A program made the position numbers and the translations under genes. A DNA stretch of 64,000 nucleotides from Chrysophaeum taylorii. Taxonomy: Eukaryota > Sar > Pelagophyceae > Pelagomonadales > Pelagomonadaceae. The stretch lies in NCBI GenBank assembly GCA_029834535.1, contig JAQMWT010000186.1:1-64000 (forward strand), given 5' to 3'. The notes beneath the pieces are model-generated. The model saw only the letters and a program-made list of their open reading frames with translations. It did not search any database and was not told where the DNA came from. Shown here piece by piece: positions 11,898 to 44,121 of the stretch. Within the stretch, counting starts at the first letter, position 1. Each line of letters begins with the position of its first letter.

Positions 11898-14800
11898 TCA
11901 ATAGTGTTCACCACTATGCGGGCGAGCTTCTGCCGGCGGTGCTTCATCGAGGCGGGTCGACCCTCTGTGGCGAATAAAGAACATTCTCTCGAGGCAATTG
12001 CAAAGTGCGACGAGCAGAGCGACGACGAGACCTAAAACGAGGAAAAAGACAACGACCAAGGCCATGGCCAACACTTCTCCCCGATCACCTTCGGAGTTGC
12101 CAAACCAGCTCGGCAAATTGCCCATAATCTTGCTAAAGATGACGGCCGCAATGAGCACTTCCTCGAAGACGAGTTCGTGCAACGCGTCGGGCACGCGCAC
12201 GATGCACGACCTGGCGCAGTAGTGAACGCTTTCACGCGAGAATTGTACGCATGCACACATGCGATATTAAAGCGCATGCGAAATAGAATAAGAGAAAACA
12301 TGGAGAAATATCAGACTCTGTGAACGACGATATGGCGAGTCCAAAGCGTGTCATGACGCGCGCGTGCCAGTTTTGATCACGGTATATCTCATCCAGATCG
12401 CTCTCGAAGAAAGGTGTGCTGGTCGTATCGTACCTCGATGCGATATCGTCTTGCAATGCGTAGGCGCCGATATGCGTGTTGGCGTAGTCGTGCGGCGACA
12501 TGAGAATCACGAAGAACGTAGGGGACTCGGGCAGCTTGGTCTTGTACGGGAAGCGGCGTCGTTTCGTCGGGTCCTCGACTTGCTTGAGTCGTTCCAACAG
12601 GAGGCTTGGGATCACGTAGTCGAACATCAGGATTTCGAGAGGAAGGATGACGCAATAGAAGAGAAAGATGGTCATGACCACACCAATCAGCCAGAGCTTG
12701 GACTTTCCTTTGCCGATGGAAGTGGCGAGTTGCATGCATAGTACTACGATGGCCGCGACGAGAAGGATTATGAACACCCAGGCGACGATATAGGTCGCGA
12801 CCAGTGGTGGTGTCTGAGGCAGCGACTTTTGCCAGAGAGCGCGCGTCATCGTTCGCTGATATATCGTTCTCTCCGTGCGGCTGAGCATCGATCTCTTCTC
12901 GGCCTCGACGAGCTTCTCGCGTCGCAAACGGCGCGTATCCTCCGCGCGAATACCACGGGTCTCGTCCAGCTCTTCTTTCAGGAGGAATGCCTCGTGCATA
13001 TGGGCTTGGATGCGTGCGTGGATGTTGACTTCCCACAGCCTCTGAGATGGGACCCACCCCCAGTCGCTTAACATCTTCATCTCGAGTCGCTTGAGTACGT
13101 TGATGGCACGGTCCGCCACGCGAGGGTCGGGAAGCCGTCGGGCCTCCGACATGCAGGCATGGAGCTCAGTTTGTCGGAGCACGATTGCCTGTCGTACTTT
13201 CTTCACGAGGGCCCGCATTTGCATTCGGCGTTCGTTTCTTGTGCTTCGCGGCAACTTCGACGCGCACAGCGCAAAATGTTGATGGCGCGCCGCGTGCCTT
13301 AAAACGAGGCGCCGCGTCGATCCTAGCGCGCGCGCCCCAACAGCAAGGGCGCCGCAGATACCCGAGATCGACTGGCTCCACGACCACGGCGCTGTCTCGG
13401 CAGACGCTTCTTCCTCCTCTACTCTCAACGTGTCCACGCACAAGTCGATGAGCGATGGGAATTCTGCTGCCGACATGAAAGTCGACCCGGAGAAACGAGT
13501 GCTTTGAATCCGCGCCTTGTATGCCGAAGCGTGCGCCATCCAAGCCTGATTGAGACGAACGATGTCTTTAGACTCGAGAGCACCGTGACCAAGTCTACTG
13601 GATGATGCTTTCGCCGCCTTCATCAAACTGCCGTCCGACACTATGTCCACTTCTTCGGGTGGTACCTGGACGAAGTCGTCCTCGTCGTCCCGATAATCGT
13701 CGCGGACCCTACTTCCTGCTTCGCTGGCGGGGAATACGAGAGCCACGTCGTCGTTGGCACAGCTTGACACGTTGCTCTCCTGCCTCAAAGCTTTTGCGAT
13801 AATCGGATCCTCGCCTCGCCCGCGGCTCCTACTGTAGTAATCGTCGCCGAACGCGGCCGCGCGATAGCCTTCGTCTCCGGCGAGAGCACCCGCGCGATAG
13901 ACCTCGTCTCCGTCGAGAGCGCCCGCGCGATAGACCTCGTCTCCGTCGAGAGCGCCCGCGCGATAGACTTCGTCTCCGTCCATCTCTGCCCTTCGTCTTC
14001 GCGACTCGCGCTCTGCATTTGAAGAAGCTTGCTCAAAGCTGTCGTGGGCGTTGGCGCTAGCGAGTGGCGCCCTGCAGCACAGACGTCGAAGCGATGGAGG
14101 GCACGGCGCCATGAGGTAGTGTTCAAACAGCCAGTCGATGAGCGAGAGGAACGGAAGCATCAGGGCCAGGACTAACATTAGTATGATGAAGTGGGTGGTC
14201 GAGTTCGCCGCGGCGCTCCCTGGTTCGTTGTCGAAACAAGCCGGACTGCCACAGTCATCCCACGAGCAAAGTCGGTGGTGCGAGATGCTTCTCGGACGGC
14301 GACAATCGCGACGAGTTTGCTTTGCGTTGCAGTCAATGTTCGGATATTCGAACAATGCTTCGAGGCCGAGCGCCGCAAAAAAGATGATAACCTCGAGCCC
14401 CAGCTTCCAAGCACGCACGCTCCTAGAAACCTCGGGGTTGTATTCTCGGAAAAAGTTGACGATTGGATGCCGGCGTGTCATAATCCGCAATATACGAGCG
14501 CTCGTCCGCGTCGAAAACACGCTGCGGGATTGTCCAGAAAAGTACTCTTCCTGAGTGGCAGGAGATCCGCCGGCAAGGTCCATCCTTGTCGGCGTTCGAT
14601 TCAGCAGACTCCTATTCGTTCCGCCCGTCTTGACTCGTTCGCGACTGTCGAGCCACACTCCGGTAAAGTGCGCGCACAGTACCAAGGTGAGAAGAACGGC
14701 GAGTGCCGTCAGAACAAGCTGCGAATCCTTGATTTTTGGAGTCGTCCTGAAAGTCCGGGTGTATAGCTCGATGGTGTCTCTTGTCTCGGCAATTGTCGAA

Positions 14801-17800
14801 TAGTCTTCGCCACCGTTAATATTCGCAGTCGGCATAGAGCAGCTGCAGGTCGTGTAGCCCTCGCGTTCAACAGCATTGCAATAATCAGGCACTATCCACA
14901 TGCTCCCGCTCGGGTCCCATGTCGAGCACACGTGCCGCGACGTACTGCACGTGAACGTGTGCAAGCCCTGTGTCCCGTTGCACCGAAGTTCGTGCAACGC
15001 ACCATCAGGACATCTCACGAGCTTGACTCCGAAAAATCCACATTCGCACTCCGCGGTCACGTTCGAAGAACTGTTGCTGACGTTAATGATGGCGTCGTTG
15101 GCCACACTTCCGCTCGCAGCCGATGCGGGGCCAACGAGAGATTGGCTTCCAGGAATGCGCAGCACGAGTCCAGTCGCGTTGCTCGCCTCAGAAGTGCCAT
15201 CCGACGTGCTGAGATGAAACCTTACGACCTGCGACACTGCCTCGTCACTGTTGTGGGGGTTGATCTCGAATTCCGTTACAGACACGCCATAGACGACGCC
15301 CTCGGCGGCAGTGATATTTGCGGACGCATTCATGAACGCACTTCCGACAGTCTGAGTCTGGGTCCCGAGTGCTGATGAAAAATTCCGACTGGCAGAGTAT
15401 AAATTTCTCGACCTGAACTCATCAACATCCTCGTTTTCGACAAGCGTGTTGCGCTGTGCGAGTGTGATAGCATCGACGGCTTCAAGAAAAACACTGCTCG
15501 CATCCGTATCATTGCGACGCGAGCGGCCAACCGTGCTGTTCGCAGTGGCGTTCGCGAATAGGTTGCTTTCCAAGAGGTTCGAGAGCACCGAGCCGGCGAC
15601 ACCAGGCGCCGTCGAACTCGAAGTTCCCAAGCCCGTCCGAACCAAAATGTCCAACGAAAGTTTCGTGAGGTCAAGAGCATCGTAAGCCGTGTCATAAAAC
15701 AGGATGTTCGGATTGGTCGTCGGTGCCAACAGAGCCGCGATTAACTGTTCAGCGATATCTTGATCGTTGTCGCCGAACTGTGCAAACGAGTCGGTGAGAT
15801 TCAGCACGAGGAGATCTAGGAGACTTGCGTCAATCCCGGCAACGCTGGCAGAGGCGGTCACGATCTGGCAGACAGTATTGAGCGAGTAATTCGCGAAGGC
15901 CGACTCAAGTGCGTCGAGCGTCAATTGGAGTAGATCGTAGCTCGACGTGTTTTGAATGTTTATTTGCTCGGTGTCGCTGCTAGATGCACCAACGGCATCA
16001 GTAACGACGACGGTCACATCGAGCCACGGTGGTGTAGTGGGAACTGGTAGCCTTGCATCCCTGAGGATGTTGTCGAGCGTGGCTGTCCGAAGGACCACGT
16101 TGTTCTCGGTTTCAAAGCGATACCTCAGAGGGGGCTCGTCTCCGACCCACCTCAGAGCCCGAAGTTCGAATAAGTCAAAAAAGGCAGCCCCGCTCGTCGG
16201 CGAGACCTCGAGCACGCCCGAGCTCGGCGGTATTCGGACTGTCAGCTCAATGTTAGCAAACCCCGTTGCGGACTCGGTAGAAGCTTCCAGTTGAAACGTA
16301 TAACTTCCGCCAGCCACGAGCGAGTCTTCCCCAATCACGAGGTCGTGCGCGTATCGCATCGAACTGCTGGATGCGCGCGACAGCTGTCTCGTGATAGATA
16401 GCGACGTCCGCGCGACTTCGTCCAGCGATCGACTCTGAGCCAGCTCGCCGTAGGTGAGAGACCACGAAGATGTGACAGTTGTCGGTTCGTCCGAATTGGC
16501 GGCCATCGCCACTTCCGTTTGGATGGTCAGCTTCGCATCTGAGTCCACAGCAGTGTCTGAACTCAGGATTTCGACGCTCGGAGGAGTCGCTTGAACAAGC
16601 CGCAAGGTCGCCGACGTATAATCGCTGCGGACCCCGTCACTCGCAGTGACTACCACTTGGAAGACGTACAAACCGGCAGACAGATTCCCAGGTTTGATTA
16701 CGAGCTGTGGGTCCCCGATGCTGTTGTAAAAGCCACAGTCAGTTCCTCCGGTTTCAATACTCAAACAGTTCCATGCGAACGAAAGACCAGCATCCTCTCC
16801 ACTTTGGACATCGCTGTCGCTTGATTCAGACGCGGAGACCAATACGGTCTCGTCCACGGAGGCACTCCGGCTGTTACCCCCAGAGATCAGCGCGACGACG
16901 TCCCCCAGTCCCACTTTGATAATCGCGGACGCAACATTCACGAGGTTGAAGGAATTGATGTGATCGATAGCCTTCGCCTGGAGTCGGTAGCTGGTGTTCG
17001 ATGCAAGCGTATACGGATCGAGGCGGTAATTCAGCGCGTTGTTAGACACCGACGGATAATCGTAAATTATTGTCCAGTCGGAAGCATCGTACAAGGTCCA
17101 CTGCATCTCGATTTGGCGGTCAGAGGCCTCTCGATTTTCGCAGTCTGTTCCGTAAGCTTCTGCAATCACCTCGAGTTCCTCGGATCGCGTGAGCGTGAAG
17201 CGTTCCCCTCCAATGATTTCAAGATATGGCAAGAAATCCGGATCGAGCTTGACATTGTGGCGATCGCTCGCCCTCTCCCCTAAGAAGTTCGACGTGTTGA
17301 GAATGAGTTCGAGTTGCGACACGCTTCCGTTGAGAAGAAGCGATTCCAACTGGTTTGAATTTGCCTGCAAAAAACTCTTTCCTCGAGCCTGCTCGGCGAT
17401 GGACACCACGACGTCATACGTCGAGTCGCCGCCCAGAGAGGAAGCGTTGGTTGTGTTGATTTTCGCACGAATTTCCCATTCGAATACCAAGTCGCGACCA
17501 CCACTTCCAGTTGACTGTTCTGCCGACACGAAGAGGTCATCGCACACGGATGTTTCTGCTGGACCCTGAAACACAACCATTGGGATGACAGGCGATGACG
17601 CCCCGGCATCAACGGTGGATTCGTTCGCAAACGGATAACAGTCACAGCGCGTGCCTTGCACACAGGCCGCTTTAGTTGTGTTTCCCACAAGAGTGATGCT
17701 AGACCCAGGCACAAACTGGAGCGCGTTGCTGACCTCCGCGTCAATTTGCGTGCTATTAACCCAGAAGCACTCAGCCTCGTCGGCGTCGTCAAACGACAGT

Positions 17801-20800
17801 AGCTCACTACATGGGAATATTGTGCTCGCAGACCAGCCTGCTTGATCGGTCGGACTGTCGAAGTCAACGAGAGTGCGCGCTCCGCTGCTTGTGAAAGCAG
17901 CCGCAGTCAAAAAAGGTGGCGACGGAAGTAGTTCATCAATCTCATCGCAAGGTCTAAGCGTGGGAATGCTCGTGGGCGAGCTCGTAGGTTCGGAAGTAGG
18001 CACGGGCGATGGCGCCATTGGCGTTGATGTGGATACCGGCGACAAAGAGGGTTCAATCGACGACAATAGGACAGGATCACTGATTTCCATCGTCGAGACT
18101 ATTGAGAAGTCGAACGAAGAGCCCAAAGCTGTAGCCCAAGTCCCGAGCGCACTGTCGAACGTCTCCGGCGATGTGCTTGACAGGGCCACCAAGACGTCTT
18201 CGGCGTAGGTCTCAGATGGTGTAACGGTGTAATCGACGACCACTAGTTCACCGTCTTCGAGTCGGCGACGACGACGCGATCCGTCCACGATAGTAAATGA
18301 AACGGTGGAAACATCAATGCCCGCCGAATCTGCAATTGCTGCCGTGATGACATCCTCGTTGCTCGCTGTGTCCGCTTCGCTAATGCCGCCGAGTTCTATT
18401 GTCCCACCGATAGTCACAAACTGCGAGCTTGTTGGCGATGGGTTAACGGCGGCGGGCACTAAAGAAGTTGATGGAGCAACGGTCGGCACTGGAGCAGGCC
18501 CGCCCGAGGGAAAAAACGCGGGCGTTGCTGTCGTTGCGGACGCTGGGGAGGGTATGCTTGGTAGAGGCGTCGTCGATGGTGACAAGAACGAAGGTATGGT
18601 CGGCTCATTAGTCGAAGTCGGAAAGGGCGACGTTAACGTGGGCTCAGGTATGGTCGGCTCTGATGATGTGGTCGAACCACCAAATAGAGTCGGAACGGGC
18701 GACGCCGGGCCAAACGTGGGCCCGAGTAAGGTCGGCACTGACGTCACGGAAGGCGCCGTTGGAGTTGACGCGGGCAACGATGTGGTCAGACCATCCAATA
18801 CAGTCGGAACGAGGGACGCCGGGCCTAGCGTGGGCCCGGGTACGGTCGGCTCTGAAGGCGTGGACGGCGTCGTCGGCGACGATGCGGGTAATGATGTGAT
18901 CGCAGCATCAAAAACAGTCGGAGCGAGTGACGCTGGGGATAATGTGGGCCCAAGTATGGTCGGCTCTAAAGGCGCGGAAGGCGCCGTCGGTGACGACAAG
19001 GGCAGCGGCACTGGTGTCTCTGAAATTGTCGTCGGGGTAGTCGGCGCTCCCGCAGACAACGGTGCGGTTGGCTCTAAAAGTACAGTCGGCAGACTTGATT
19101 CTATCATCGCCGACGGCGTAAGCGACTGCGCTGGCTGCAATACCGGAAAGGGTGACGGTCCTTGTATTTCCAACTCTGTGGGTACTACGCCAGGCGCGAT
19201 CGTGAAAGACGTCGGCCCTGGTGCGGATGTTGTCGGTCCTGACAGCGTCGGTGTGATCGGCGATGTTGGCGGCTCTGATGCCAATGGCGCCACGGGGGAA
19301 ATTGTTGTCACTACTAGAGGCGATGGCACTATCGAGGACACGGTCGGTTCCGATGCCGGCTGCGTGATCGGGGACACTGTTGACCCTGCTATCGGTGCTA
19401 GTATCGGAGACACGGTCGGCTCTGTCGCCGGCGGCACGATCGGCGACGTTGTTAGTCCTGATATTGACGACACGCTGGGGGAAAGTGTTGACCCTGCTAT
19501 CGGCGTCGTGATTGGAGACGCAGTTTCATCAGATACCGACGTCGGAGACACGGTCGGTCCAGTCGCCGGCGGCGTGATTGGAGATGCTGTCGGCCCTGGC
19601 GCCGCTGTTAAAGACACGGTAGGTTCTGGCGCCGAGGTTAAAGACACGGTAGGTTCAGATGCCGGTGGCGTGAGCGGGAATACTGTTGGCCCTGGCGCCG
19701 TTATCAGAGATGCGGTTGGCACTGGCACCGGCAGCGTGATCGGAGACAGAGTCGGCGAAAGAATTGGTGCTGGTACTGGCGTCACCGTCAAATCTGCAGC
19801 CGTCGGCGTTATTGTGGCTGCAGTCGGCACTGCTATCGGCGCAGGTATTGGAGAGACGGTCGGGTCTGTCACCGGGGGCGTGATTGATGACACTGTCGGC
19901 CCTGGTACCGCAGTTGAAGACACAGTCGGCTCTGGCGGTGTGATCGGAGATTCTGTTGGCTCCGGCGCAGCTATCAGGGACGCGGTTGGGACTTGTACCG
20001 GCGGCACGATCGGAGACGCTGTCGGCTCTGTAAACAGTGCTGGAACTGGCGGCACCGTCAAATCTGCAGCCGTCGTCGGCACTGCTATCGGTGCAGGTAT
20101 CGGAGAGACGGTCGGGTCTGTCACCGGGGGCGTGATTGATGACACTGTCGGCCCTGGTACCGCAGTTGAAGACACAGTCGGCTCTGGCGGCGTGATCGGA
20201 GATTCTGTTGGCTCCGGCGCAGCTATCAGGGACACGGTTGGGACTGGTACCGGCGGCACGATTGGAGACACTGTCGGCTCTGTGATCGGTGCTGGTATCG
20301 GAGAGAGTGTGGTCGGCTCTGTGACCGGCGGCGTGATCGGAGACGCTGTCGTGCCTGGTAGCGGCGCGGACGTCAGTGCTGGTGTGGGCGTCGTCCCTGC
20401 CAATGGTGTTGTTGCAGAAGTCGTCGGACCTGGTAGCGGCGTGGATGTTAGCGCTGGCGTTGGTGCCGTCACAAGCGGGGGTGCCGTTGCAGCCGTCGTT
20501 GGCCCTGGTAGCGGTACGGGTGCTAGAGCTGGCGTTAGTGTCGTCCCAGCCAGTGGCAGCGTAGGCGTCGTCAAGCCAGGTGTTGATGCGGACGTCGGCA
20601 CGAGCATCGGCCCAGGCGTCGCCGTCGTTGGTACCGCGACGGGCATCGGCGAGATAACAGGCGCAGGGGATCCTGTTGGCGTCGACACTGGTTCTGCCGT
20701 GAGCGCGGCAGGCGTCAGCGTGCCCGTCAAAGAAGCTGGCGTCGACCCGAGCGTCGGCGCTGGTATCAGGGCAGGTGTCGGTGCCGGTGCTGACGCCGTT

Positions 20801-23800
20801 ATAGGGGCGGGGGTGACAGGTTTCGGCGTCGGCGCGAATGTGGTGTAAGGATCCTGAAGGCGGCGGCGCACGACAGTCCCTTCATCGCGGCGTCCCGTGG
20901 TGAGTGGTGCGTGTTGATCCCAGATCTTGCTATACGGCGACCACGCCTCCCACGGTTTCACTTCGCCGTTAAAATGGAGGGCGTAGGCTTCGTGCGTCGA
21001 AAGGTTCGCCGCTGCCAGATCTTGAGGCATGATGTACCCTAATCCCTGCAGAACACCAATGCGAACGTGCCGCTCATACGCATCCAGGGATTCCCAGCAC
21101 TCGACCTCATCCTCTAGAGCCAGGTAAGCGAGGCCCAGGCCGTGCGCGAGGGAACCCGCCGGAAAGAGCCCTCGCATCTCGGCTACATTCGTCCAGGCGT
21201 GATAGACGCGCGTCAAGTTCTTCCTGCGCCACGCGTGAACATCTACAGACACGAGGCCAAAGTTCCAGGCAGGCTGGGCCGCGAGACCGCGAACTATAGC
21301 TTCGTCGTCTTCGGGGCATTCGGTTGGTACTTGGCAGCGCACATCTCTCCAGGCATCCGATAGCGATGCCAAGAACGTGGATGGCATGCAGTCATAATGA
21401 GCATCGTCGTCGCACAACGCGTCGCTCAATGCCCCGCCTGGCCGGATGCGACGAAAGCCAAAGTGTGGAGTCTCGAACACTCGGAGGAGGTGATTCGGAG
21501 TCATACGAAAAAAACCCTCGTGCGGAGAGCTGATCCAGTTCTGGCACCCGGCGAGAACGACAGCGTCTTCACCAAAGGACACGTCGTGCGCGAAGGCAAT
21601 ATCGCGTTGCACAATGACGTCGTCGTCAAGTAGCAGGAGCCGGCGCACGCCCTCGTACTCGCGCAGTAGGGGGACGTAAAAACGGGCCAGGTTGAAGGGC
21701 GACATGTGCTTTGAGGATCGGTCGCGAGCGTACTTCGGCGCAACAACTTGGTGCCATTCTGCGTTAGACCACGAGGTCCAGACAGGTCGCACGCCATGGC
21801 GGTTCAGCAGCTCGTCTTCGATGCTGGCGATCGAGCGGATTTCGAAGCGAGCACCCCAACACTCGTCGACGACGTCCTCGATCCTCCAAGTAGGATCCTC
21901 CGAGTGGTTTGGCAACACGAGATGAATAACAAGATTCGCAATGCTGGATGTGGTCGCGCACGTCGACGACAACGTTGCCGCCAGGGCGGGCGCTCGATCA
22001 GACATGATGAGAACGTGGACGTCATCCTCGATCGACGCGAGCCGCGAAGAATTCTTGGCAGCCGCGCCGCCACCAAAAGTGGGCGTGTAGTTCGAAACTA
22101 GGTTGAGGTCCTCATTCGTCAGATAGCGTTCAAAGCCGTTGACGACGAGGGCCTCGGCGACGGCATTGAAATTCAAAATGCGCTGCTCAAGAGAGACGAC
22201 AGTCCGGGTGTCGCGCGACGTCGAGTCGAAGGAAGCAGCGCCGAGTTCGTCGAGCACGCGCGCGTTGCTCTCGACCTCTAGAAACCCAAGCACTTCTTGG
22301 AAGCACGCTCTCTTATTTGCAATACAAGACTCGTATTGAACGTGTAGCACTTTGAATCTCTTTTCCGCCAATCGGTCATCGCGTTCCTCGCGCTGCCGCA
22401 GTTGCTGTCGTACGAACCGAAGGAGACGATTGACGTCTATACTCAGGCGCCCTTCGTGGGGGCTGGTAGGTTCCGCGACACGCAGGCTTACATAGGTCTC
22501 CAAGAGATTCTCGCGATCAAGCACAATGATCTTCGATCCTAGCTCCTCGAGGACGCCGGCAAGGTTATAAAAATTGTATATTTTCTTCGCTCGCGAGATC
22601 CCGTCGGAGACAGCCTCGTTGTTCAGCCAGTCATTCATGACTTTAGTTCCGGAAATCGTCGTGCTAGACGGGCAGGCGCAGGGCATCTGAAGTGAATTGC
22701 CGCCGCGCGCGAGAGCACGCCCTATCTTATCGGTCGCGTTCTGCGAGCTTAAAGCGAGAGTTGGTGGTCTGAGGTTCTCCGCGACGAAGACGCGGAACGA
22801 CTCCTGCATTACCCTGGTGATCCAGGACTCACTTCTGGTGCCGCCGCCGCCGCGGCCAAGGTCGACGGTGTTGCCCTCAACGGCCGCTGCGGCGCGCTCG
22901 AGGATGGCACACAGTGTCTCGAGGTGGATTCCATAGAAGTCGTCATACTTCATAACGCGGGCATCAAAGGTCGCGTCGCAAACTGATGGAACACCCGAGC
23001 CATCATCATCATCAAGGAGAGTTGCAAGCAATCGCGATACTTTTGCCCAGTGGCAAAGCGTCTTTGGCTGGCAGACGCGCATGTCATCCTCCTCCGACAG
23101 GTCGTGAATCGGCAGCAGCGAATCGCGCGGCCAGCCGCGCCCAGTACCTCCGGCTCCGCCGCCAGAGGCGCAGACGTTCTCGTGCTCGTCCAAGACGCTC
23201 ATGAACCATTCCGAGCCACTATGGGGCGCGGTCCAGACGACGAACGACCGCGACTTGCTGCCGATGCTGGCCAGCTCGCGCTGGGCTTCGTCAGTCTCGG
23301 TTTTTTTGATCGCAGGCGCGTACGCGAGGAAGTGTTCTTTATATTCGGGAATCGCGCCCCTCCACGCGTACGGCTTGCGATCACCGTTCCAGTGCAAGGC
23401 GTAGAAGGAAGATATCGATTCGAGCGGGATATCGCTGAGCTTAAGGTCGTCGGGCTCGACGAAGCCGAGGCCGTGGAGCACGGGCATGCCGACGTCATCC
23501 ATGCACGCAACGTCGTCGGCCAGCGTTAGATAAGGAATGCCGAGGCCGTAGGCGAGACTCGTCGTCGGAAACCAACCGAACTCTCTGTTGGCCGCGATCC
23601 AGGCGATATACCGTTCGGTGATGTTCGCGACGCGCCACGCCGTCAGGTTGAACTTGTTGAGTCCAAAGTTCCAGGCGCGCTTCGCGCGCAGCGCGTCGAG
23701 GTCGAGGCGAGTGCCCTGAATCTCGGCCGAAGCGTTCGAGAGGGAGGCAAACAAGCCGGAGGGGGCGCACCCCCTTTCGTCAGCATCTGCGCACGTGAGG

Positions 23801-24762
23801 TCTACCACCGAGCCATCGCCGCCGCGCGGCAGTGCCCCGAAGCCCATGTAGGGCACTTCGACGTACGACAGATTTGACGAGGCCTCCATGCGACCGCACG
23901 AATTCCAGATCCAATTGATGCAGCCCGCAGATAACGGCTCGCTGAGCGGGAGCTCCCAGAGGCGCGCGATATCGCCCTGCATGATGACGTCGTCGTCCAT
24001 GAAGATGATCGACTCGAGTTCGGCGAACTCGGGCAGGCGCGGCAGGTAGAACCGCAGGCAATTAAAGACCGTGTTGTGTTTTGGCGACCGGTCCCACGCG
24101 GGCGCGCGGACGCTGAGGTTAGTCGACGGCACCTCGACCTCCCACGTCACCGTCAGTCCGCTATCCCTGATGCTCTGCACGACTGCGCTTTCCGCGAGCA
24201 GCCGCCAATCCGCTCCGGCGCACTGGGATGGCATCAGTTTGACGCGCGCCTCGGCGAGCCCCGAGTCCGGCACGACGAGATGGAAGCGCAGCGCCGCGTT
24301 TGTGTTGACGCACACTGACGCCAAGACCGCCGACAACACCGCGATGCGGTCGGTCAATAAGATGACGTCGATGACGTCCGAGCGCACAACTGCGCCGTCG
24401 CCCACGTCGACCGCCGCGTCGTAAAAAAAACGAGGCCTGCGGACATCGTCGCGGCCGCGAGACGACGAGGCGTCGTCGTCGCCGCCGCCGCCACCACCAC
24501 CGCGATAGCTTGGCGTCGAGCCGCCGTCTCTATCGTCGTCGCCGCCGCCACTTGGCGGTGGTGTATGGTGGAAGTCATCGTCCGCCATCTGGCGACTCCT
24601 CCGGAGTTCGCGCCTCGATGATCCTCCTCCGCGGTTACTACTCAACACTAGGCCGTCGGTCGAGGCTGCGCAAGCGGCCGCGCGACACGGTTGAACTGAC
24701 CGCGAGCAGACGTAGGTGCAACGCAACAGGATTGAAAGCACGGTGGCAGCGATCAAGCGCAT
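11898..24762 (-). CDS. Giant fusion protein: GT8 - sulfotransferase - GT8 - mucin-like stalk - REJ/GPS-like - multipass membrane domain
   Basis: Exon 24762..12257 (ATG at 24762), intron 12256..12211 (46 bp, GTGCAT...GCCAG), exon 12210..11898; 4272 aa. A signal peptide (MRLIAATVLSILLRC) opens the protein. GT8 domain 1: DxD-type FMDDDVIMQGDI near 256 and LHWNGDRKP near 458. About 500-845 resembles Stf0-type sulfotransferases (VVWTAPHSGSEWF, then IIVLDRENLLETYVS). GT8 domain 2: LLLDDDVIVQRDI near 1048 and LHFNGEVKPWEAW near 1262. About 1305-2115 is a Pro/Thr/Ser/Val repeat stalk. About 2500-3190 resembles REJ/PKD domains of polycystin-1-like proteins. A Cys-rich GPS-like segment lies near 3235-3312, then about seven hydrophobic segments, two in the terminal part. 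The likely setting is secretory pathway or cell surface with the enzymes outside. The intron was placed because the frame resumes with membrane-type sequence; its exact ends are uncertain. Confidence 0.75.
13861..13983 (-). repeat. 33-bp coding minisatellite (DGDEVYRAGAL) in the giant gene
   Basis: Three close copies plus one diverged copy of a 33-bp unit encoding DGDEVYRAGAL, between the third and fourth hydrophobic segments of the giant membrane protein. The three good copies are nearly identical, indicating recent expansion. The loop would be cytoplasmic if the enzyme domains are extracellular. Confidence 0.8.
18420..20850 (-). repeat. Mucin-like Pro/Thr/Ser/Val repeat region of the giant gene, with an internal 252-bp-offset duplication
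   Basis: About 800 codons of short degenerate units such as PAPIAVPT, EPTVSPI and ITPPVTDPT. Blocks 19828-19981 and 20080-20233 are nearly identical at an offset of 252 bp (84 codons), showing recent in-frame duplication. The strict spacing also leaves the plus strand open for 847 codons (18305-20848, Val/Gly/Thr-rich), which is a mirror artefact. Many Thr/Ser residues make dense O-glycosylation of an extended stalk likely. Confidence 0.85.
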
Positions 24763-25995
24763 GGTCAGCACGCGCGCGCTCGCAAGGGTTGTGGCCGCGA
24801 TGCGAGACCTGAATTAATAATTTCTCCCCCTTTTTCTGTTTGCGTCTCGTAACCGCACAATATTTTTTGGGTAGAAGTATCCAGAATCTACTACCACGCC
24901 TTTCCATCCTATAGTTCTCTGAACTTGTGCTATCGAATCTTTTTCAAAACCTTGCTACATTTCCTTTAGTTCCTGACGCAGTTCATCCCGTCCATTTATT
25001 TGCATTTTCGCGCAATTCGAAACAGAGCTCAAATCTTTTTGGAACGTGTGGTCCAGAGGTTGTACCAAAACCTCGACTCGCCAACTAATCAAAAACCGTC
25101 GCCAGACGCTTTCGAGAGCGTTCGATGGGCACGCGCCCATTCGACTCTCGTCGACCAGGTGTCGTCGTCGTCGTCGTCGTCGTGAGGGTGTCGCGTTAGA
25201 GCGAGCGAGACTCAGGTTTCCTCCAACGTCGATTTTTTGCGCATCGCATCGCGGCGCGTTTGATGCTGCCTCTCTTCCAAGAAAGAGACTTTAAATCGCC
25301 GACATGTGGGGAGCACGGAAGCGAGCAGGAGGAGAGGGGTGCAGAGGCAGGCATTGGGGATAGAGTGGGCACCCTGAGACTGAGAGGCCTCGGGAGGATG
25401 CGGCGCCGGGGCAGGCAAAGAGACGAGATGGCCAGCATCTCGTTGGCATTTATTCTATGCCGTCGGATATGCACACTGATGATACTCGTCGCGTCCCCGA
25501 GGGCCGGCCATCTTAAGGTCGCGCGGGCGGGTTTGCTGCGCTCTTGAGTTGCTCCGTGTGTGTGCAACCCACGCCCCTGCTCGGCAGAGCGGCTGGCTCG
25601 CGTGCCTCGTTGAAGTTGTTTCATAAACGTATTCGATTTCGCGCCGCCGCGGGTCGGAGCTGCGGGTCAACAAGAACAACCACCACAACAACCAATGTTT
25701 TTTGCCCTTCTTTCATTCGCCTAGAAGATCTTACTTATCGCGCTCCACGAGGAGGCCAATAGTAATAATACGAAGAAGAAAGACCCCGGGCATCCTCGGA
25801 GAAGTGGTTTATTAAGACTCTGACTCTCGCAGTCTCGATCGATCAATTTTGCATCTAGGTCAACAAAGCGGTGGTAGTAGCAAATATTCGGCAGGCCCTC
25901 GTCTGCATATTCCAAAGGGGCCCTTTAGACGCACCCCTTCCGACTGACTGACTGACTGACTGACTGACTGACTGACTGACTGACTGACTGACTGA
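24763..25995. other. Intergenic region between the giant gene's 5' end and the HAT gene's 3' end
   Basis: About 1.2 kb. It contains the presumed promoter of the giant gene, with an AT-rich AATTAATAATTT near 24811-24822. There is a (GTC)n microsatellite near 25161-25182 and a (GACT)14 array at its right edge. No coding region was recognised. Confidence 0.5.
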
Positions 25996-25997
25996 CT
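25942..25997 (+). repeat. (GACT)14 tetranucleotide array touching a stop codon
   Basis: Fourteen perfect GACT units run to base 25997 and overlap the stop codon (TAG, plus-strand CTA at 25996-25998) of the minus-strand HAT gene. The whole start of its 3' UTR is therefore a perfect simple repeat. Confidence 0.95.
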
Positions 25998-28011
25998 ACA
26001 AGGGGGTCTGGTGCGTGGCGCCGCGGCGGCTGGCGGCGAGGACGGAGCGGACGACGATGCGCTGGCGTTCGACGAGGCGGGGGTCGTTGGTCTTCTCGAG
26101 GAGGGGGAGGCCGGCGAGGTGGAGGATGCTCTGGATGCCGTGGTTGAGGCGCTCGAGCTCGACCTTGGCGCCGCGCTGGAGCTCGAGATTTTCGTGCTTA
26201 ATTGCGACGAGGACCTCGGCGAGGGTGTCGCGGTCTGTCGCGGCGTCGCGGAGGCGGTCGGCCTGGGCCCTGCGGACGGCAGCGCAGGTCTCGTCGATCT
26301 CGGCGGTCTGGAGGGCTGCGACGACTCGGAGTCCTTCGACGACTTCGACTAGCGCGGGTTCCCTCGTGAGCTTGACAAAATCTGCAGTCTCTTTGGCGTC
26401 GAGGCCCGCGGTCGAGAGCGCGTTGAGGTCGGCGTCGACGGGCGCCCGCGTGAACAACATCGGTACTTCGCCGTGGTCGATCTTTTGCTTCTTGGCCGGC
26501 GGTTCGTCGTCGGCCGTCGTCGTAAACGGGATCTCCCGCGGCGCGTCGTCGTCGTCTTCGGGGGGGGGCACCTCGTCGTTTTCGTCGGGCTGCTGCTGCT
26601 GGGGCGGAAAGACCAGGTCGCGGAGCGAGTCGAGCGGAAGCTTGAGCTTTTCGGCCGCAAAAGCGGCAAAGGCGTCCCAGACGGGCTTGGCCCGCTCGTC
26701 GTCGAGGATCCGGAGAGCGCGAGCGTAGAGGTCCTTGGCGGTCTCGAGCTTGTCGCGGTCGATGGCGAACTGGGCGTAGTCGAGCCAGAACGTCGCCGAG
26801 GCGCGCGGGACCGCCGCCTGGCTCGCCGCGTCGTACACCTTCGCCGCCTGCTTGAACTGCTTGAGGCCGCGCTCGAAGCCCGCGTACGCGATGTACAGAT
26901 CCACCAGCTTGGCTTCGCGCTCGGGGTTCGAGTTCTCGTCCTCTCGCACCGCATCCTCCCACTCGAAGATCGCGCCGTCGAACACCTTGCGTGCCTCGCT
27001 CGGGTTCCCGGCGCTTCGCATGGCCGACTCCGCGCGGCGGGCTACCGCCCCCACGTCCCACGCCTCCTCCTCCTCGACGTACGCGCCGACTACCTCCATC
27101 GCGCTCTCCTCGACACCCTCGTTCGTAGTCAGCTCAAGTTCCGTGCTTGCTCGTCCAGGGACCGGCTCGGTCGTCGTCGTAGCTGCGGGCACTGATTCCG
27201 TCATCGCGGGGACTAGCTCCGCAGCAGGGACAGGCTCCATCATCGCTGCTGCGGGGGCTGACTCCTCCGTCGCCGCTGCGGCGGGGGTTGACTCCTCCGT
27301 CATCGCTGCGGCGGGGACTGGCTCCTCCGTCACCGCTGCTGCGGCGGGGACGGACTCCTCCGTATTCGTAGCCGCGGGGACTGGCTCCTCCGTCATCGCT
27401 GCGGCGGGGACTGGCTCATCCGTCACCGCTGCGACTGACTCCATCATCGCTGCTGCGAGGACTGAATCCTCCATCATCGCGGATGCGGCGTGGACTGACG
27501 CTGTCATAGCCGCTGTGTGGGCTGACTCCTCCGTCAACGCGGCTACGGCGGGGACGGACGCCTCCGTCATCGCGGTTGCACCGGGGACTGACTCCTCCGT
27601 CATCGCGGTTGCACCGGGGACGGACTCCTCCTTCATCGCGGTTGCACCGGGGACTGACTCCTCCGTCATCGCGGCTGCGGCGGGGACGGCGGACTCCTCC
27701 GCCATCGCGGTTGCGTCGGGGACTGACTCCTCCGTCATCGCTGCTGCGGCGGGGACTGACTCCTCCGTCATCGCTGCTGCGGCGGGGACGGCGGACTCCT
27801 CCGCCATCGCGGCAGCGGCGGGGACGGCGGACTCCTCCGTCATCGCGGTAGCGGCGGGGACGGACTCCTCCGTCATCGCGGCAGCGGCGGGGACGGACTC
27901 CTCCGTCATCGCGGCAGCGGCGGGGACGGACTCCTCCGTCATCGCCGCTGCCGGGACTGACTTTGTCATCGTCGTCGCAACCTCGAGGACTTGGTCGATC
28001 TCAGCGTCCAT
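25996..28011 (-). CDS. HAT-repeat (RNA-processing-type) protein with an N-terminal TEESVPAAA repeat domain
   Basis: 671 aa from the ATG at 28011 (MDAEIDQVLEVATTMTK). The frame is open further upstream, but that extension would lie across the whole 5' half of the divergent RAD54B-like gene and is rejected. Residues about 17-273 are tandem 10-12-residue units of the AMTEESVPAAA type: low-complexity, acidic, probably disordered. About 330-440 holds HAT/TPR-like helices (ARKVFDGAIFEWEDAV, then AAKVYDAASQAAVPRASATFWLDYAQF, then ETAKDLYARALRIL). Their W-x-x-Y-A-x-F and alternating Leu/Ala pattern is typical of CstF77, Clf1/Syf1 and Prp39 RNA-processing scaffolds. A basic PPAKKQKIDHG near 505 could be a nuclear localisation signal. 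The C-terminal 110 residues are charged helix. The specific complex is unknown. Confidence 0.6.
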   Translation of the reverse strand: MDAEIDQVLEVATTMTKSVPAAAMTEESVPAAAAMTEESVPAAAAMTEESVPAATAMTEESAVPAAAAMAEESAVPAAAAMTEESVPAAAAMTEESVPDATAMAEESAVPAAAAMTEESVPGATAMKEESVPGATAMTEESVPGATAMTEASVPAVAALTEESAHTAAMTASVHAASAMMEDSVLAAAMMESVAAVTDEPVPAAAMTEEPVPAATNTEESVPAAAAVTEEPVPAAAMTEESTPAAAATEESAPAAAMMEPVPAAELVPAMTESVPAATTTTEPVPGRASTELELTTNEGVEESAMEVVGAYVEEEEAWDVGAVARRAESAMRSAGNPSEARKVFDGAIFEWEDAVREDENSNPEREAKLVDLYIAYAGFERGLKQFKQAAKVYDAASQAAVPRASATFWLDYAQFAIDRDKLETAKDLYARALRILDDERAKPVWDAFAAFAAEKLKLPLDSLRDLVFPPQQQQPDENDEVPPPEDDDDAPREIPFTTTADDEPPAKKQKIDHGEVPMLFTRAPVDADLNALSTAGLDAKETADFVKLTREPALVEVVEGLRVVAALQTAEIDETCAAVRRAQADRLRDAATDRDTLAEVLVAIKHENLELQRGAKVELERLNHGIQSILHLAGLPLLEKTNDPRLVERQRIVVRSVLAASRRGATHQTPL

Positions 28012-28054
28012 CGGAAAATAAACCCTTACCCTCGCCCGTTGGAAAACTTGGACG
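28012..28054. promoter_or_regulatory. 43-bp bidirectional promoter between HAT and RAD54B-like genes
   Basis: Only 43 bases separate the two start codons. They contain AAACCCTTACCC (28020-28031), the same telo-box-like element seen at other genes. At this spacing the core promoter must overlap one or both genes, or 5' UTRs must be almost absent. Confidence 0.5.
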
Positions 28055-30526
28055 ATGCGCAAGTTCCAGCCCCTCGTCAAAGTTCCGACCCAGGCCGCGG
28101 GCTTGAAGCCCGCGGCCCCCACGCCGGCGGCCCCCACGCCGGCGCCCCCCACGCCGGCGGCCCCCACACCAACGGAGACGTGGGAGGCGTTGTACGCGAA
28201 GAAGAAAGGACCGAAGAAGCGGGTAATGTGGCACGACGGCGTGTTGCGACGCGATGGCGATCGCCTCGTCCTAATCGACGACGAGGGCGCCGTCATCAGC
28301 CGCGCCTTCGCCGCCAAGACCTCCTCTCTCGCCGAGGACACGGAGGACGACAAACTGTTCGCTGCGTATAGGGTGCAGGTCGGGTCGCGGTGTGACAAGG
28401 AGAACGCGGTACCAAGGAAGGACGGTAAGCTGTCGGCCGAAGGTCCCGCGCTCGGGCGCGCGGCCAAGCGCGTGCTGCTGCCGGCGGCCCCCAAGCGCCC
28501 CCTCCTGTCGGCGCCCGCGACCCGCGTTGCGAAGAAGAGGGTGGTGGCGCAGAAGAAGAGGCTAGAGCCCTTCGCGATCTGGGATTCGCCGAGAGTCGAG
28601 CTCGTAGGCTCCCTCGCCGCCAAGCTCCGACCGCACCAGCTCGAGGCCGTGAAATTTCTGTACGCGTGCTTGAGCGGGCGCAACGCGACGCGCTGCAACG
28701 GCGGGAGCGGCGCCATACTCGCCGACGAGCCCGGTCTCGGGAAGACTCTGACGACGCTCTCGTTGCTGCGCGTCGTCGCCAAGGCGACGGTGACGGTCAA
28801 CCGGGACGACGCCACTCCGAGGGTCCGGAAAGTCGCGATTTTGTGCCCGGCCACCATCGTTGGCCAGTGGGTGGCCGAGAATACGAGGTGGTTCGGACGA
28901 GTGTCCTCGAACGTCGCGTTCGTCGCGGCGCTCGAGGACGCGGCGTTCGACGGACGCCCGGAGACTGCCCGGGCCGCCATCTCTCGCTGGGCGGCCATGG
29001 ACGCGCGCTCGACAACCGTGGTCCTGGTCGTGTCGTACGAGACGTGCCTCCGTCATTCCCAAACAATCCTCAATCACCAGCACCTCGACGCTCTCGTGTT
29101 CGACGAAGGCCATCGCCTCAAGAAGGCTGCCGGAAAGTTGGCGACGGCGATTCGCGCGTGCCGGGCGCGGAAGCGGCTTCTCATTACCGGCACGCCGGCG
29201 ATGAACAACCTCGACGAGTTCTGGGCGTTGGCCGACATCGTCAACCCGGGCGTTCTTGGCTCGCTCGCCGACTTCAAGCGGTCGACCGGCAAGCGCATCG
29301 AGGTTGGGGCGCGCAAGGGCGCGACGCGCGTCGACGTCGACGACGCCGAGGCGGCCCGCGACGCGGTCCGCCATCAGGCGTCCGCGTGGTTCTTGCGTCG
29401 CACGCAGGCCAACGTCGTGCGAACCTCGATCCCGCCAAAAACTGAGCACGTCGTCTGTTGCCGCATGACGGTCTCGCAGAAGAACGCGTATCGCGCGGCG
29501 TGCGCGCGCGCCAAGGCGGGCGAGACCGAGCCGCTCGCCGCAGTCAACGAGCTCCGAACCCTCAGCACGCGCGGCCCCGCCGGCGACGCGTCCGACCACC
29601 ACCACCACCCCGAGTCGGGAAAACTCGACCTCGTCCTGGCCCTCGTTTCGGCAGCGATTGCCGAGGGCGACAGGCTCGTGCTGGTGTCGACGAGCACCAA
29701 AACCCTCGACGTGCTTGCCGAGCTCTGCGCATCGCGCGAGTGGCGGTGCGCGCGGCTCGACGGCTCGACGCCAGCGGACCAGCGGACCAGTCTCGTGCGC
29801 GCCTTCAACTCGCCCTCGAGCCGAGAGGCCGTCTTCTTGTTGTCGTCGCGCGCCGGCGGCTGCGGCCTCAATCTCGTCGGAGCCAACCGACTCGTGCTCG
29901 TCGACGCCGACTGGAACCCCGCGACCGACGAGCAGGCGATGGCGCGCGTGTGGCGCGACGGCCAAACCAAGCCGGTCCACATCTACCGCCTCCTCTCGGC
30001 GGCGTCCATCGACGAGAAGATCCTCCAGCGCCAGCTCGCCAAGCACGACATCGCCGACGCCGTCGTCGACGGAGCCGATGCCCGCGCCTCCTTCGACGCC
30101 GAGGACCTCAGGGCGATCTTCGACTACGACCCCGACCTCGCCTCCTCGACCTTCGGGGCCCTCTTAGCCGACGACGACGACGATAATAATAATTGGCCAC
30201 CCTTCAAAGGCGCCCGTTCGATCGACGCCGACGATGTCCTCCGCCAGGCGGCCATCGAGACGCAGCTCGTCACGTACCTCCGCTCGGCGCGTTTTCATTC
30301 TGACGGCAAGCCGCCCGTTGTTCTTGGCGCGAAGCACCCCGAGGCAACCAAACGGCCTCGAGACGACGAGGCAACCGACGACGACGACGAAGCCTCATCC
30401 GAGCCCCATGTTGCGGCGACGACATCCCAAGAGGAGGAGGAGGAGGAGGAGGAGGAGGCCCCGACGCGCCGCAGCCGCCGCCGTATCATTGAGGAGGATG
30501 AGGAGGAGGAGGACCTCTTCCGCTGA
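28055..30526 (+). CDS. RAD54B-like SNF2-family DNA translocase
   Basis: 823 aa. RAD54-type translocases remodel RAD51-DNA complexes during homologous recombination in the nucleus. Residues about 43-95 (WEALYAKKKGPKKR, then MWHDGVLRRDGDRLVL) match the small N-terminal domain of RAD54B that precedes the helicase. Walker A is ADEPGLGKT near 222 (Pro where Met is usual). Motif II is DEGH-x-LKK near 350, the RAD54 version. TGTPAMNNLDEFWALADIVNPGVLGS is typical of RAD54/RAD54B. Motifs IV-VI include LDGSTPADQR, LLSSRAGGCGLNL and QAMARVWRDGQTKPVHIYRLL (HIYR is a RAD54-group mark). The C-terminus is a long acidic tail with a nine-Glu run. One exon. An early (APTPA)n stretch is low-complexity. It shares a 43-bp promoter with the HAT gene and converges with the Rieske gene, 79 bp away. 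Confidence 0.9.
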   Translation: MRKFQPLVKVPTQAAGLKPAAPTPAAPTPAPPTPAAPTPTETWEALYAKKKGPKKRVMWHDGVLRRDGDRLVLIDDEGAVISRAFAAKTSSLAEDTEDDKLFAAYRVQVGSRCDKENAVPRKDGKLSAEGPALGRAAKRVLLPAAPKRPLLSAPATRVAKKRVVAQKKRLEPFAIWDSPRVELVGSLAAKLRPHQLEAVKFLYACLSGRNATRCNGGSGAILADEPGLGKTLTTLSLLRVVAKATVTVNRDDATPRVRKVAILCPATIVGQWVAENTRWFGRVSSNVAFVAALEDAAFDGRPETARAAISRWAAMDARSTTVVLVVSYETCLRHSQTILNHQHLDALVFDEGHRLKKAAGKLATAIRACRARKRLLITGTPAMNNLDEFWALADIVNPGVLGSLADFKRSTGKRIEVGARKGATRVDVDDAEAARDAVRHQASAWFLRRTQANVVRTSIPPKTEHVVCCRMTVSQKNAYRAACARAKAGETEPLAAVNELRTLSTRGPAGDASDHHHHPESGKLDLVLALVSAAIAEGDRLVLVSTSTKTLDVLAELCASREWRCARLDGSTPADQRTSLVRAFNSPSSREAVFLLSSRAGGCGLNLVGANRLVLVDADWNPATDEQAMARVWRDGQTKPVHIYRLLSAASIDEKILQRQLAKHDIADAVVDGADARASFDAEDLRAIFDYDPDLASSTFGALLADDDDDNNNWPPFKGARSIDADDVLRQAAIETQLVTYLRSARFHSDGKPPVVLGAKHPEATKRPRDDEATDDDDEASSEPHVAATTSQEEEEEEEEEAPTRRSRRRIIEEDEEEEDLFR

Positions 30527-36554: not shown

Positions 36555-37563
36555 CTAAACGTCGTCGCGGCGGCGGGCCGATAGGGTGAGGGCCTTGACC
36601 TGCGCGGCGAGGAAAGCGCGTCGGAGGGCCGACGTGGTGCTCTGGGCCTGGATCCGCTTCGTTTCGATGAGGTGCTGGCGCTTTTCGCGCCGCCTCTTGG
36701 TCGCCTCCTCCCGGGCCGTGACCTCGTCGGTGTTGTTGGCCCGCTGCTCCTTGAGGTCCGCGTTAACGTTCATGTACCTTCGGAGCTTGTTGTGCCAAAA
36801 TTTCACGCCAAAAAAGTGCTCGCGGAATTTGTGCTGGAACCGAAACGCCGGGTGGAGCACGTTAGGAAAGTTGCGGTGGATGGCCACGAACTCGTCGAAC
36901 GACAGCTTCCCGCCGTCCACGAGCTTGACCTCCTTGAGCGCCCGGGTCGCGCGACCCCGATTATTTTCGGGGTGGAGGTCGGACAACAACAACAAAAATT
37001 CGTCGTGGGATATCGAGTTCGAGTCGTCCTCGTCGAATATGCGATACGCGTAGTGCAACAACTCGCGTTCCTCGAAAAAGCAAAAACTCCCCAAGCACTT
37101 GACGACGCTCCCGAAATCGAGCTTGTTTTCGTCGAGAGGATCGGCGAGGGTCGTGAAGATTCGCCGCAAAAATTTGCAGTCTCGCCGCAGTTTCACGTGG
37201 TCCAAAATCTGCGCGATCGTCACGACGCCAGTCCTGGTGTTGTCGATGGCTTCGAAGTACCGCATCCACTTCTCCAGCTCGGCCTGCGTCAACGCGAGAA
37301 ACTCGATCGCGTACTTCAACGGATCGTTCTTGTACTTGTCCCGCTCCTCGGCTTGGGACCTCGCCTGCTCCAGCTTCTTGAGCAACTTTTGCTCCCTCGA
37401 CGCGGCCGCGGCGTCGTTCGGCCTCAGCTTCAATTCCTTGCGCGCCTGCTTGAGCTCGGCGAGGACCGCGTCGACGCTCTCGAATTTTGGCACGGCGTTC
37501 CGGTCCACCTTTTTCACCCACAACGAAACATCGCCGCCGAACAAAGAATCCCCGAAGACGGCG

Positions 37564-37599
<36 letters not shown>

Positions 37600-43898: not shown

Positions 43899-44121
43899 GC
43901 CTCTCACGTCGCGGGTGAGATACGATAATAATATCCTAAACGCCGTTGGGAGTGATGAACGGAAGTGAAGAAGAACCTTGAGGGAGGGAGGGAGGGCGGG
44001 CACCAAAAAAAAAAAAAAAAAAAAATAAATGTCGAAAAAGACTCAACACCACGCCCATATCCATATGTGGCGCGCACCCTCGTAGCAAGAAAAGTCCGAC
44101 CCCAGGATTAAAAAAAAAGGC

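Follow-up and report, generated by a model that had tools for sequence, protein, structure and literature searches.

Among stramenopiles, the Ectocarpus protein Esi0130_0068 places a REJ and GPS-type region outside the cell, followed by 6-7 predicted membrane segments, as does the protein considered here. It is set apart, by its description rather than by sequence, in being 1427 aa long with a 976-residue ectodomain, and the accessible part of that description mentions no GT8 domain, sulfotransferase or long stalk (PMC4700764). The animal SpREJ/PKD1 family likewise has REJ ahead of a Cys box and membrane segments, with sugar-related domains in some members; however, these are lectins rather than enzymes, and the family usually combines a GPS with a PLAT domain that follows the first transmembrane segment, and has 1-11 such segments (11 in PKD1), according to the accessible part of PMC1934368. 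Stf0/Sulfotransfer_3 sulfotransferases share with the enzyme family described below their 5' and 3' PAPS-type motifs, but here the domain is set between two GT8 domains, and the copy under study scores below the Pfam cut-off and lacks the loop Arg. The names 5'- and 3'-PAPS motif follow common usage for sulfotransferases. LARGE1, a separate type II Golgi enzyme that joins GT8 to GT49, is a dual glycosyltransferase making matriglycan on dystroglycan, whereas the present protein has two similar GT8 domains, a sulfotransferase between them and a receptor on the same chain. Searches for literature on REJ domains with glycosyltransferases and sulfotransferases, and on GT8 fusions, found no paper, and wider searches, one on pelagophytes, sulfotransferases and glycosyltransferases and one on REJ, GT8 and stramenopile lineages, gave none relevant by title among the matches listed; within this literature, the statement of the initial annotation that no such protein had been described stands. 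To our knowledge, this would be the first REJ-type protein with enzymes in its ectodomain.

The window, a 64,000-nucleotide stretch of contig JAQMWT010000186.1 of the marine pelagophyte Chrysophaeum taylorii, encodes from 24762 to 11898 on the minus strand a predicted protein of ~4252 aa, composed of one open frame and a putative 3' exon. The stop-to-stop frame of 4193 codons covers 24813..12232 (minus strand), with the first Met at 24762; it would join exon 2 in phase through a GT-AG intron (12316-12211) and end at a stop at 11898. The predicted order is a signal-like start, GT8, sulfotransferase, GT8, stalk, REJ, a GPS-like Cys box and seven hydrophobic segments, the latter defined by a 19-residue mean hydropathy of 1.5 or more:

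12317..24762, minus strand: exon 1, from the first Met to the putative intron, 4148 codons plus 2 bases
24697..24762, minus strand: signal-peptide-like N-terminus (MRLIAATVLSILL...), from hydropathy
23314..24381, minus strand, approximate boundaries: GT8 domain 1, DDD motif from 24003, HWNGDRKP from 23394
22039..23280, minus strand, approximate boundaries: candidate sulfotransferase (Sulfotransfer_3/Stf0-like), from a sub-threshold Pfam match, relatives and weak PDB profile matches
23221..23223, minus strand: CAT (His) codon in the 5'-PAPS loop, from a family alignment of 12 rows
22447..22467, minus strand: loop deletion site, TSPHEGR; ~10 residues with two Cys, retained in 10/12 rows, are gone
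20887..22020, minus strand: GT8 domain 2, DDD motif from 21633, HFNGEVKPW from 20976
18424..20844, minus strand: Ser/Thr/Pro stalk, 807 residues, free of Cys and of N-glycosylation sequons
17854..18423, minus strand, boundaries by eye: small extracellular domain with RRRRRLEDGE, resembling stretches upstream of REJ in the loci C594 and C667
15910..17121, minus strand: REJ domain, from Pfam
14821..15048, minus strand: GPS-like Cys box ahead of the first membrane segment, from Cys-box resemblance; cleavage triad absent
14662..14718, minus strand: hydrophobic segment 1, from hydropathy
14347..14403, minus strand: hydrophobic segment 2, from hydropathy
14137..14193, minus strand: hydrophobic segment 3, from hydropathy
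12733..12789, minus strand: hydrophobic segment 4, past a ~450-residue loop, from hydropathy
12640..12696, minus strand: hydrophobic segment 5, from hydropathy
12211..12316, minus strand: putative 106-nt GT-AG intron, phase kept, from a sequence-based splice check
11898..12210, minus strand: putative exon 2 with hydrophobic segments 6 and 7 and the stop, like the ends of P0012 and P0014
12120..12176, minus strand: hydrophobic segment 6, weak (1.54), exon 2, from hydropathy, coordinates from residue numbers
12003..12059, minus strand: hydrophobic segment 7, exon 2, from hydropathy, coordinates from residue numbers

The computed frame bears out the observation of one open frame running through the enzyme block, stalk, REJ domain and membrane segments. 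The single long frame plus short 3' exon of the initial annotation is thereby upheld, with the splice itself predicted, whereas its length of 4272 aa is revised to 4252 aa; P0012 and P0014 end in C-terminal sequences similar to the exon 2 product. A homologue search with the whole protein (P0001) recovered none of 1634 candidates at E 0.001, unlike searches with two separate parts of it, which gave matches. Viral and prokaryotic collections yielded 62 and 59 pattern matches, respectively, and 0 confirmed relatives.

The stalk proposed earlier was recovered as 807 residues in the frame of its flanks, with 32% Ser+Thr and 25% Pro. Over this stretch the coding frame has 0 stops and the other two forward frames 44 and 8; one antisense frame is also open (0 stops; 48 and 27 in the others), so openness alone is weak evidence over this stretch. 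Self-matches within the stalk (45-base windows, >=80% identity) were all offset by multiples of three, 18/18 here and 418/418 in C594, a second fusion in this genome, and mismatches in frame-keeping windows numbered 145, 143 and 237 at codon positions 1, 2 and 3 (827, 661 and 3060 in C594). Together, the repeat and stop statistics fit translation in the frame of the flanking domains.

The deposited annotation implies another arrangement, namely two adjacent genes, an enzyme and a REJ receptor, with an open stalk between them. The NCBI model CTAYLR_008224 (1589 aa) starts 58 residues downstream, excluding the signal-like stretch, departs from the stalk frame and ends in the stalk, missing the receptor half; at C594, CTAYLR_007697 and CTAYLR_007698 are separate proteins on one contig, and the reading frame shifts between enzyme and receptor halves. 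The accessible part of the genome report states that annotation drew on RNA-seq evidence (PMC10366177), and the open antisense frame lessens the weight of stalk openness. However, the tail of CTAYLR_008224 lies in the frame with 8 stops over the stalk, against 0 in the Ser/Thr/Pro frame, and both the three-base repeat offsets and the mismatch peak at codon position 3 argue for continuity. By eye, no signal-peptide-like start lies ahead of REJ in frame; in C594 a GT-AG pair (113583-113710, picked for consensus among 194 in-phase pairs) restores phase; and in a third fusion, C479a, the cassette and REJ share one 2913-codon frame (81968-90706) without a long stalk. We thus consider two genes very improbable and retain the single fusion gene. 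The skip annotated in CTAYLR_008224 (about 20952 to 20789) was rejected as a likely frame artefact.

The Pfam check suggested with the initial annotation assigned GT8 and REJ, whereas the sulfotransferase remained sub-threshold and GPS unmatched. GT8 (PF01501) matched in two stretches with E 4.8e-34 and 118.5 bits, and the domains scored singly reached 63.4 and 63 bits (cut-off 24.3); GT8-2 is 34% identical to GT8-1 (E 3.3e-56). In GT8 enzymes the DxD motif serves metal binding and is accompanied by a C-terminal HxNGxxKP motif. Both motifs, the former as DDD, are found in both domains of the window, which were modelled as GT8 folds with WbbM, LARGE1, LgtC and glycogenin among the fold matches of the predicted structure; a PDB profile search with the whole cassette gave nothing at E 0.01. 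These results support the two intact GT8 domains reported earlier and, from sequence and model, strongly suggest membership of the GT8 glycosyltransferases, with predicted activity.

The Stf0-like sulfotransferase reported between them is recognizable through relatives over the cut-off, whereas the window copy matches Sulfotransfer_3 with E 0.0063 and 17.2 bits, under the cut-off of 27. Three of six relatives pass this threshold (the C286 and C370 domains and P0010); C594 and C479a fall below it, and P0008 has no listed match. In a second scan P0006 was over the cut-off (28.1), P0003, the whole C286 protein, was below it (25.7) and P0011 was unmatched, while the C286 domain alone scored 29.5 for Sulfotransfer_3 (cut-off 27) and 22.8 for Stf0 (cut-off 22). 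A PDB search with the sulfotransferase profile (E up to 1) gave 12 sulfotransferases among 16 chains, but support is weak because the best E was 0.054; in the single-sequence search with the window domain (E up to 10), none of the four chains found was a sulfotransferase. In fold searches of the modelled cassette, which includes the sulfotransferase only as a part, glycosyltransferases fill the best 50 listed per search, with no sulfotransferase there. The 5'-PAPS loop residue is Arg in 10/12 family rows and Lys in 1/12, and the window copy alone has neither. With His at this position and the two-Cys loop deleted, the module is probably weak or dead, and the sulfation earlier suggested as a possibility for this copy is doubtful.

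Nine cassette loci were found in the genome, three running on into REJ and membrane segments and one into membrane segments only; at the other five neither REJ nor membrane segments were found, so the cassette can exist without a receptor. The architectures comprise GT8-ST, GT8-ST-GT8, GT8-ST-GT8 with membrane segments and GT8-ST-GT8 with REJ and membrane segments (ST, sulfotransferase), and enzyme-less REJ proteins with a related base are also encoded. The receptor half of C594, in another frame than its cassette, is 52% identical to that of the window over 2106 alignment columns, and both its GT8 sites and its sulfotransferase site are intact by motif. In C479a, which has additional membrane segments in the next frame, the active sites are altered: GT8-1 carries EDD and a Gln, and in GT8-2 Lys replaces His. 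A fused copy can thus persist with changed sites. Between window and C594, pairwise Nei-Gojobori dN/dS values, with dS near saturation, were 0.161/0.76 (GT8-1), 0.368/1.58 (ST), 0.235/1.23 (GT8-2), 0.36/1.83 (REJ half) and 0.389/1.52 (TM); dN is below dS in each compared domain.

These altered copies bear on the idea that the enzyme-like domains have lost their catalytic use and instead bind glycans at the head of a surface receptor for adhesion or sensing. The REJ-fused C479a and the window copy, with its PAPS-loop His and lost Cys loop, speak for such a role. The lectin domains of animal REJ proteins are N-terminal. Their presence in some of these proteins, given in the accessible part of PMC1934368, points the same way. 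Nevertheless, judged by motif, neither GT8 site of the window copy and none of the three C594 sites is damaged, and the pairwise GT8 dN/dS ratio between these copies is ~0.2; we regard binding heads as rather unlikely.

The REJ domain was confirmed by Pfam PF02010 well over the cut-off (E 3.9e-38; 131.7 bits against 25; frame residues 2565-2967). Of the GPS-like sequence noted initially, the Cys-box resemblance remains, but PF01825 was unmatched in 14614-15936 up to E 10 and the GPS cleavage triad is absent; the genome-wide Pfam GPS search gave a single match, at C40. Hydropathy reproduced the approximately seven membrane segments in the C-terminal part, and four further windows exceeded the threshold, at the N-terminus, within GT8-1 and, twice, in the REJ region. 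AlphaFold gave no usable structure for the membrane part (mean pLDDT 42.1), and a PDB profile search with the REJ-TM alignment returned nothing at E 0.01. A Pfam scan (E up to 10) over the final 814 residues of the open frame, which stops short of the 104-residue product of exon 2, gave no match to PLAT or a polycystin channel domain. The polycystin-like character assigned earlier is not supported, and Polycystin-1 family membership is not borne out: Pfam matched neither GPS nor PLAT nor the channel domain in the regions scanned, and hydropathy gives seven segments versus 11 in PKD1.

Alternatively, the protein could be a receptor of gametes or a channel subunit of the polycystin/REJ type, its enzyme block being incidental decoration. 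This reading has a precedent in a male-gamete-specific brown-algal protein with REJ, GPS, 6-7 membrane segments and positive selection in REJ, according to the accessible part of PMC4700764. Yet the PLAT and channel domains are unmatched, the segments number seven, and dN is below dS pairwise in the cassette. The 45 REJ matches across the C. taylorii genome further suggest that REJ is a general surface platform, and a gamete receptor or channel subunit likewise appears very improbable.

We consider it slightly better than an even chance that one gene encodes a giant membrane protein, acting in the secretory pathway and at the cell surface, that builds an acidic glycan. The GT8-sulfotransferase-GT8 part would face the Golgi lumen or the outside, the two GT8 domains using nucleotide-sugar donors to make an acidic glycan for the pelagophyte cell covering or mucilage; sulfation would be performed by the module in paralogues that keep the motifs, the window copy being probably weak or dead. 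The stalk may act as a spacer between enzyme and membrane with a likely O- or hydroxyproline-glycosylated surface, and the REJ, GPS-like and seven-segment part may be the anchor, a load-bearing or sensing base common to the enzyme-less REJ proteins of the genome. In the accessible parts of two reports, material of the pelagophyte theca and mucilage derives from Golgi vesicles (PMC12168098), and C. taylorii is a named mucilage producer (PMC6521808). A more elaborate proposal, which we hold to be unlikely, is a self-decorating receptor whose head would polymerise and sulfate an acidic glycan on its own stalk while the REJ-GPS-like-7TM base would tether the cell to its own mucilage or theca and signal the tension there, by analogy with LARGE1, a sulfotransferase and dystroglycan in one chain; the enzyme block may modify its own stalk, and the REJ part may sense the glycan, as the initial annotation proposed.

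Automatic annotation can hide genes of this GT8-ST-GT8-REJ kind. Because one genome holds several architectures, comparing them offers a test of what each part does. We know of little at the gene level on how pelagophyte and other stramenopile cell coverings and bloom mucilage are made and anchored; a single protein uniting glycan-building enzymes with a membrane scaffold would offer a direct molecular way into both processes.

Chrysophaeum taylorii is a pelagophyte; the assembly containing the window contig comprises 70.8 Mb in 697 contigs, and its gene calls are described as using RNA-seq and homology evidence (PMC10366177). In a protein search, the window cassette (GT8, sulfotransferase, GT8) matched the deposited C. 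taylorii protein CTAYLR_008224 (P0002; 100% identity, 96% of the query). The locus and two other frames in the window are as follows.

24813 to 12232, minus: 4193 codons without a stop
24762, minus: first Met, starting a hydrophobic, signal-peptide-like stretch
18424-20952, minus: stretch where CTAYLR_008224 departs from the frame, lacking the REJ-membrane half
12316-12211, minus: putative GT-AG intron, 106 nt, which would connect the frame in phase with an exon ending at 11898
25996-29052, minus: 1018-codon frame with HAT/TPR-type repeat matches under the cut-off
36555-44042, minus: open frame of 2495 codons containing leucine-rich repeats as well as weak matches to EF-hands

With this splice, supported by the resemblance of exon-2 sequence to the C-terminal ends of two related proteins (P0012 and P0014), the window protein would have 4252 aa. 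The deposited model starts 58 residues downstream of the first Met and lacks the signal-like stretch; it leaves the frame right after HFNGEVKP, from about 20952, and re-enters at 20788 in a frame carrying 8 stops. The proteins of two other cassette loci, C286 (P0003) and C479a (P0009), likewise depart from the frame near the end of the cassette.

The deposited annotation would make the locus two neighbouring genes, since CTAYLR_008224 stops short of REJ and the paralogous locus C594 is annotated as two separate proteins, CTAYLR_007697 and CTAYLR_007698. However, C479a carries GT8-ST-GT8 and REJ within one 2913-codon frame (81968-90706), with about 300 residues from the cassette end to the first similarity with the window receptor half and further membrane segments in the next frame (90343-94593). 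At C594, one frame holds cassette and stalk and REJ-TM follows in another; a GT-AG pair at 113583-113710 restores phase, but it was picked by consensus among 194 in-phase pairs. In the window, inspection of the frame by eye found no Met with a signal-peptide-like stretch ahead of REJ. We therefore regard two genes as very improbable and favor a single fused gene.

The stalk joining the two halves (frame residues 1324-2130, 807 in all) is 25% Pro and 32% Ser+Thr, and contains neither Cys nor N-glycosylation sequons. Its coding frame has no stops, against 44 and 8 in the other two forward frames; on the opposite strand one frame has none and the others 48 and 27. Every stalk self-match of a 45-base window at ≥80% identity has an offset divisible by three (18/18; 418/418 in C594). 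At ≥75% identity, mismatches at codon positions 1, 2 and 3 number 145, 143 and 237 over 51 frame-keeping windows, and 827, 661 and 3060 over 543 in C594, these windows not being independent. The direction of these statistics fits translation in the frame common to both flanks.

In the receptor half, the GPS-like box retains Cys and Trp and lacks the cleavage triad, His-Leu-Thr/Ser. Pfam GPS did not match this box, its single genome match being at contig C40. No PLAT or channel-domain match was found up to E 10 in a scan of the last 814 residues of the 4193-codon frame, which ends ahead of exon 2, and the membrane part has a predicted structure of low confidence. The closest named counterpart, likened by its published description, is Ectocarpus Esi0130_0068, with REJ, GPS and 6-7 segments (PMC4700764). 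The genome yields no fewer than 45 REJ matches, a figure that sets a minimum for matches and does not count genes. Several sit in open frames 4000-6175 codons long, and together the matches amount to a large REJ repertoire. Of the 29 other REJ loci listed, 9 were judged by eye to have a Ser/Thr/Pro-rich start (L010, L012, L023, L024, L031, L033-L036). A frame on contig C667 alternates stalks with RRRLED-type domains; L054 (C667 248000-255000) is a REJ protein with small domains between stalks, a Cys-bearing type ending YTLTMT being present twice.

A cassette search of the genome gave 14 matches at nine loci. REJ and membrane segments follow the cassette at three (C186, which is the window contig, C594 and C479a). 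At a fourth, C479b, it is followed by membrane segments, recognised by their resemblance to C479a, and no REJ. On C479, 108468-115451 (L043, L044) is one 2328-codon frame of cassette and membrane segments without REJ. Neither feature was found within the flanking stretches examined at C286, C370, C544, C529 and C575; C529 and C575, like P0010 and P0011, have GT8-ST without a second GT8. In a tree of 12 rows, the window groups with C286 (support 94/93, just below star level) and C594 with C544 (100/99, starred), both partners being unfused. The C286 frame stops about 110 stalk-like residues on, and that of C544 about 10. The tree requires three changes of fused state without giving their direction; our preferred reading is that the receptor part was lost in both C286 and C544. 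Between window and C594, dS is 0.76-1.58 for the cassette and 1.52-1.83 for the receptor half, a broadly similar synonymous depth in keeping with the halves having travelled together.

The initial annotation had called the middle domain an Stf0-like sulfotransferase. The window domain scores 17.2 bits against Sulfotransfer_3, below the cut-off of 27, which three of six relatives pass (C286 domain, 29.5; C370 domain, 31.8; P0010, 32.6); C594 (24.2) and C479a (21.5) fall below, and P0008 matches no sulfotransferase model at E ≤ 1. P0006 is over the cut-off (28.1), the whole C286 protein under it (25.7), and P0011 gives no match at E ≤ 0.1. Against the Stf0 model, too, the C286 domain is over the cut-off (22.8 vs 22). 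A six-domain profile retrieved 16 PDB chains at E ≤ 1; sulfotransferases make up 12 of these, and the best E value is 0.054. On these results the proposed identity has fair support for the family as a whole and less for the window copy. The 5'-PAPS loop reads PHSGSEW in the window and PRSGSEW in 10 of 12 rows, with Lys in P0011, and the window copy lacks about 10 residues, a stretch that in 10 of 12 rows includes two Cys. Pairwise dN/dS of the domain comes to about 0.23 with C594 and 0.32 with C286, averages over both lineages in which a recent loss would stay invisible. The window domain is probably impaired; we do not claim that it is dead.

The individual parts are known families, and we file the window protein among REJ-type membrane proteins; their joining is, to our knowledge, new. 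Literature searches for REJ combined with glycosyltransferase and sulfotransferase, and for GT8 fusions, found nothing within a coverage that mostly excluded subscription papers. The protein runs from a signal-like start through the ectodomain to a first membrane segment beyond the GPS-like box, an order that would place the enzymes in the Golgi lumen or outside. Golgi vesicles are described as the source of pelagophyte theca and mucilage material (PMC12168098), and C. taylorii is termed a mucilage producer (PMC6521808). A chain with two transferases suggests polymer building, in the manner of LARGE1 with its alternating sugars (PMC9746966), but the two similar GT8s here may share one specificity. 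In the fused paralogue C479a (81968-90706; L039, L040), motifs are altered in both GT8s and the sulfotransferase loop is intact; the window copy is the reverse, with intact GT8 motifs and an altered loop, and in C594 all three sites are intact by motif. Given these opposite alterations, the fused copies may have become specialised.
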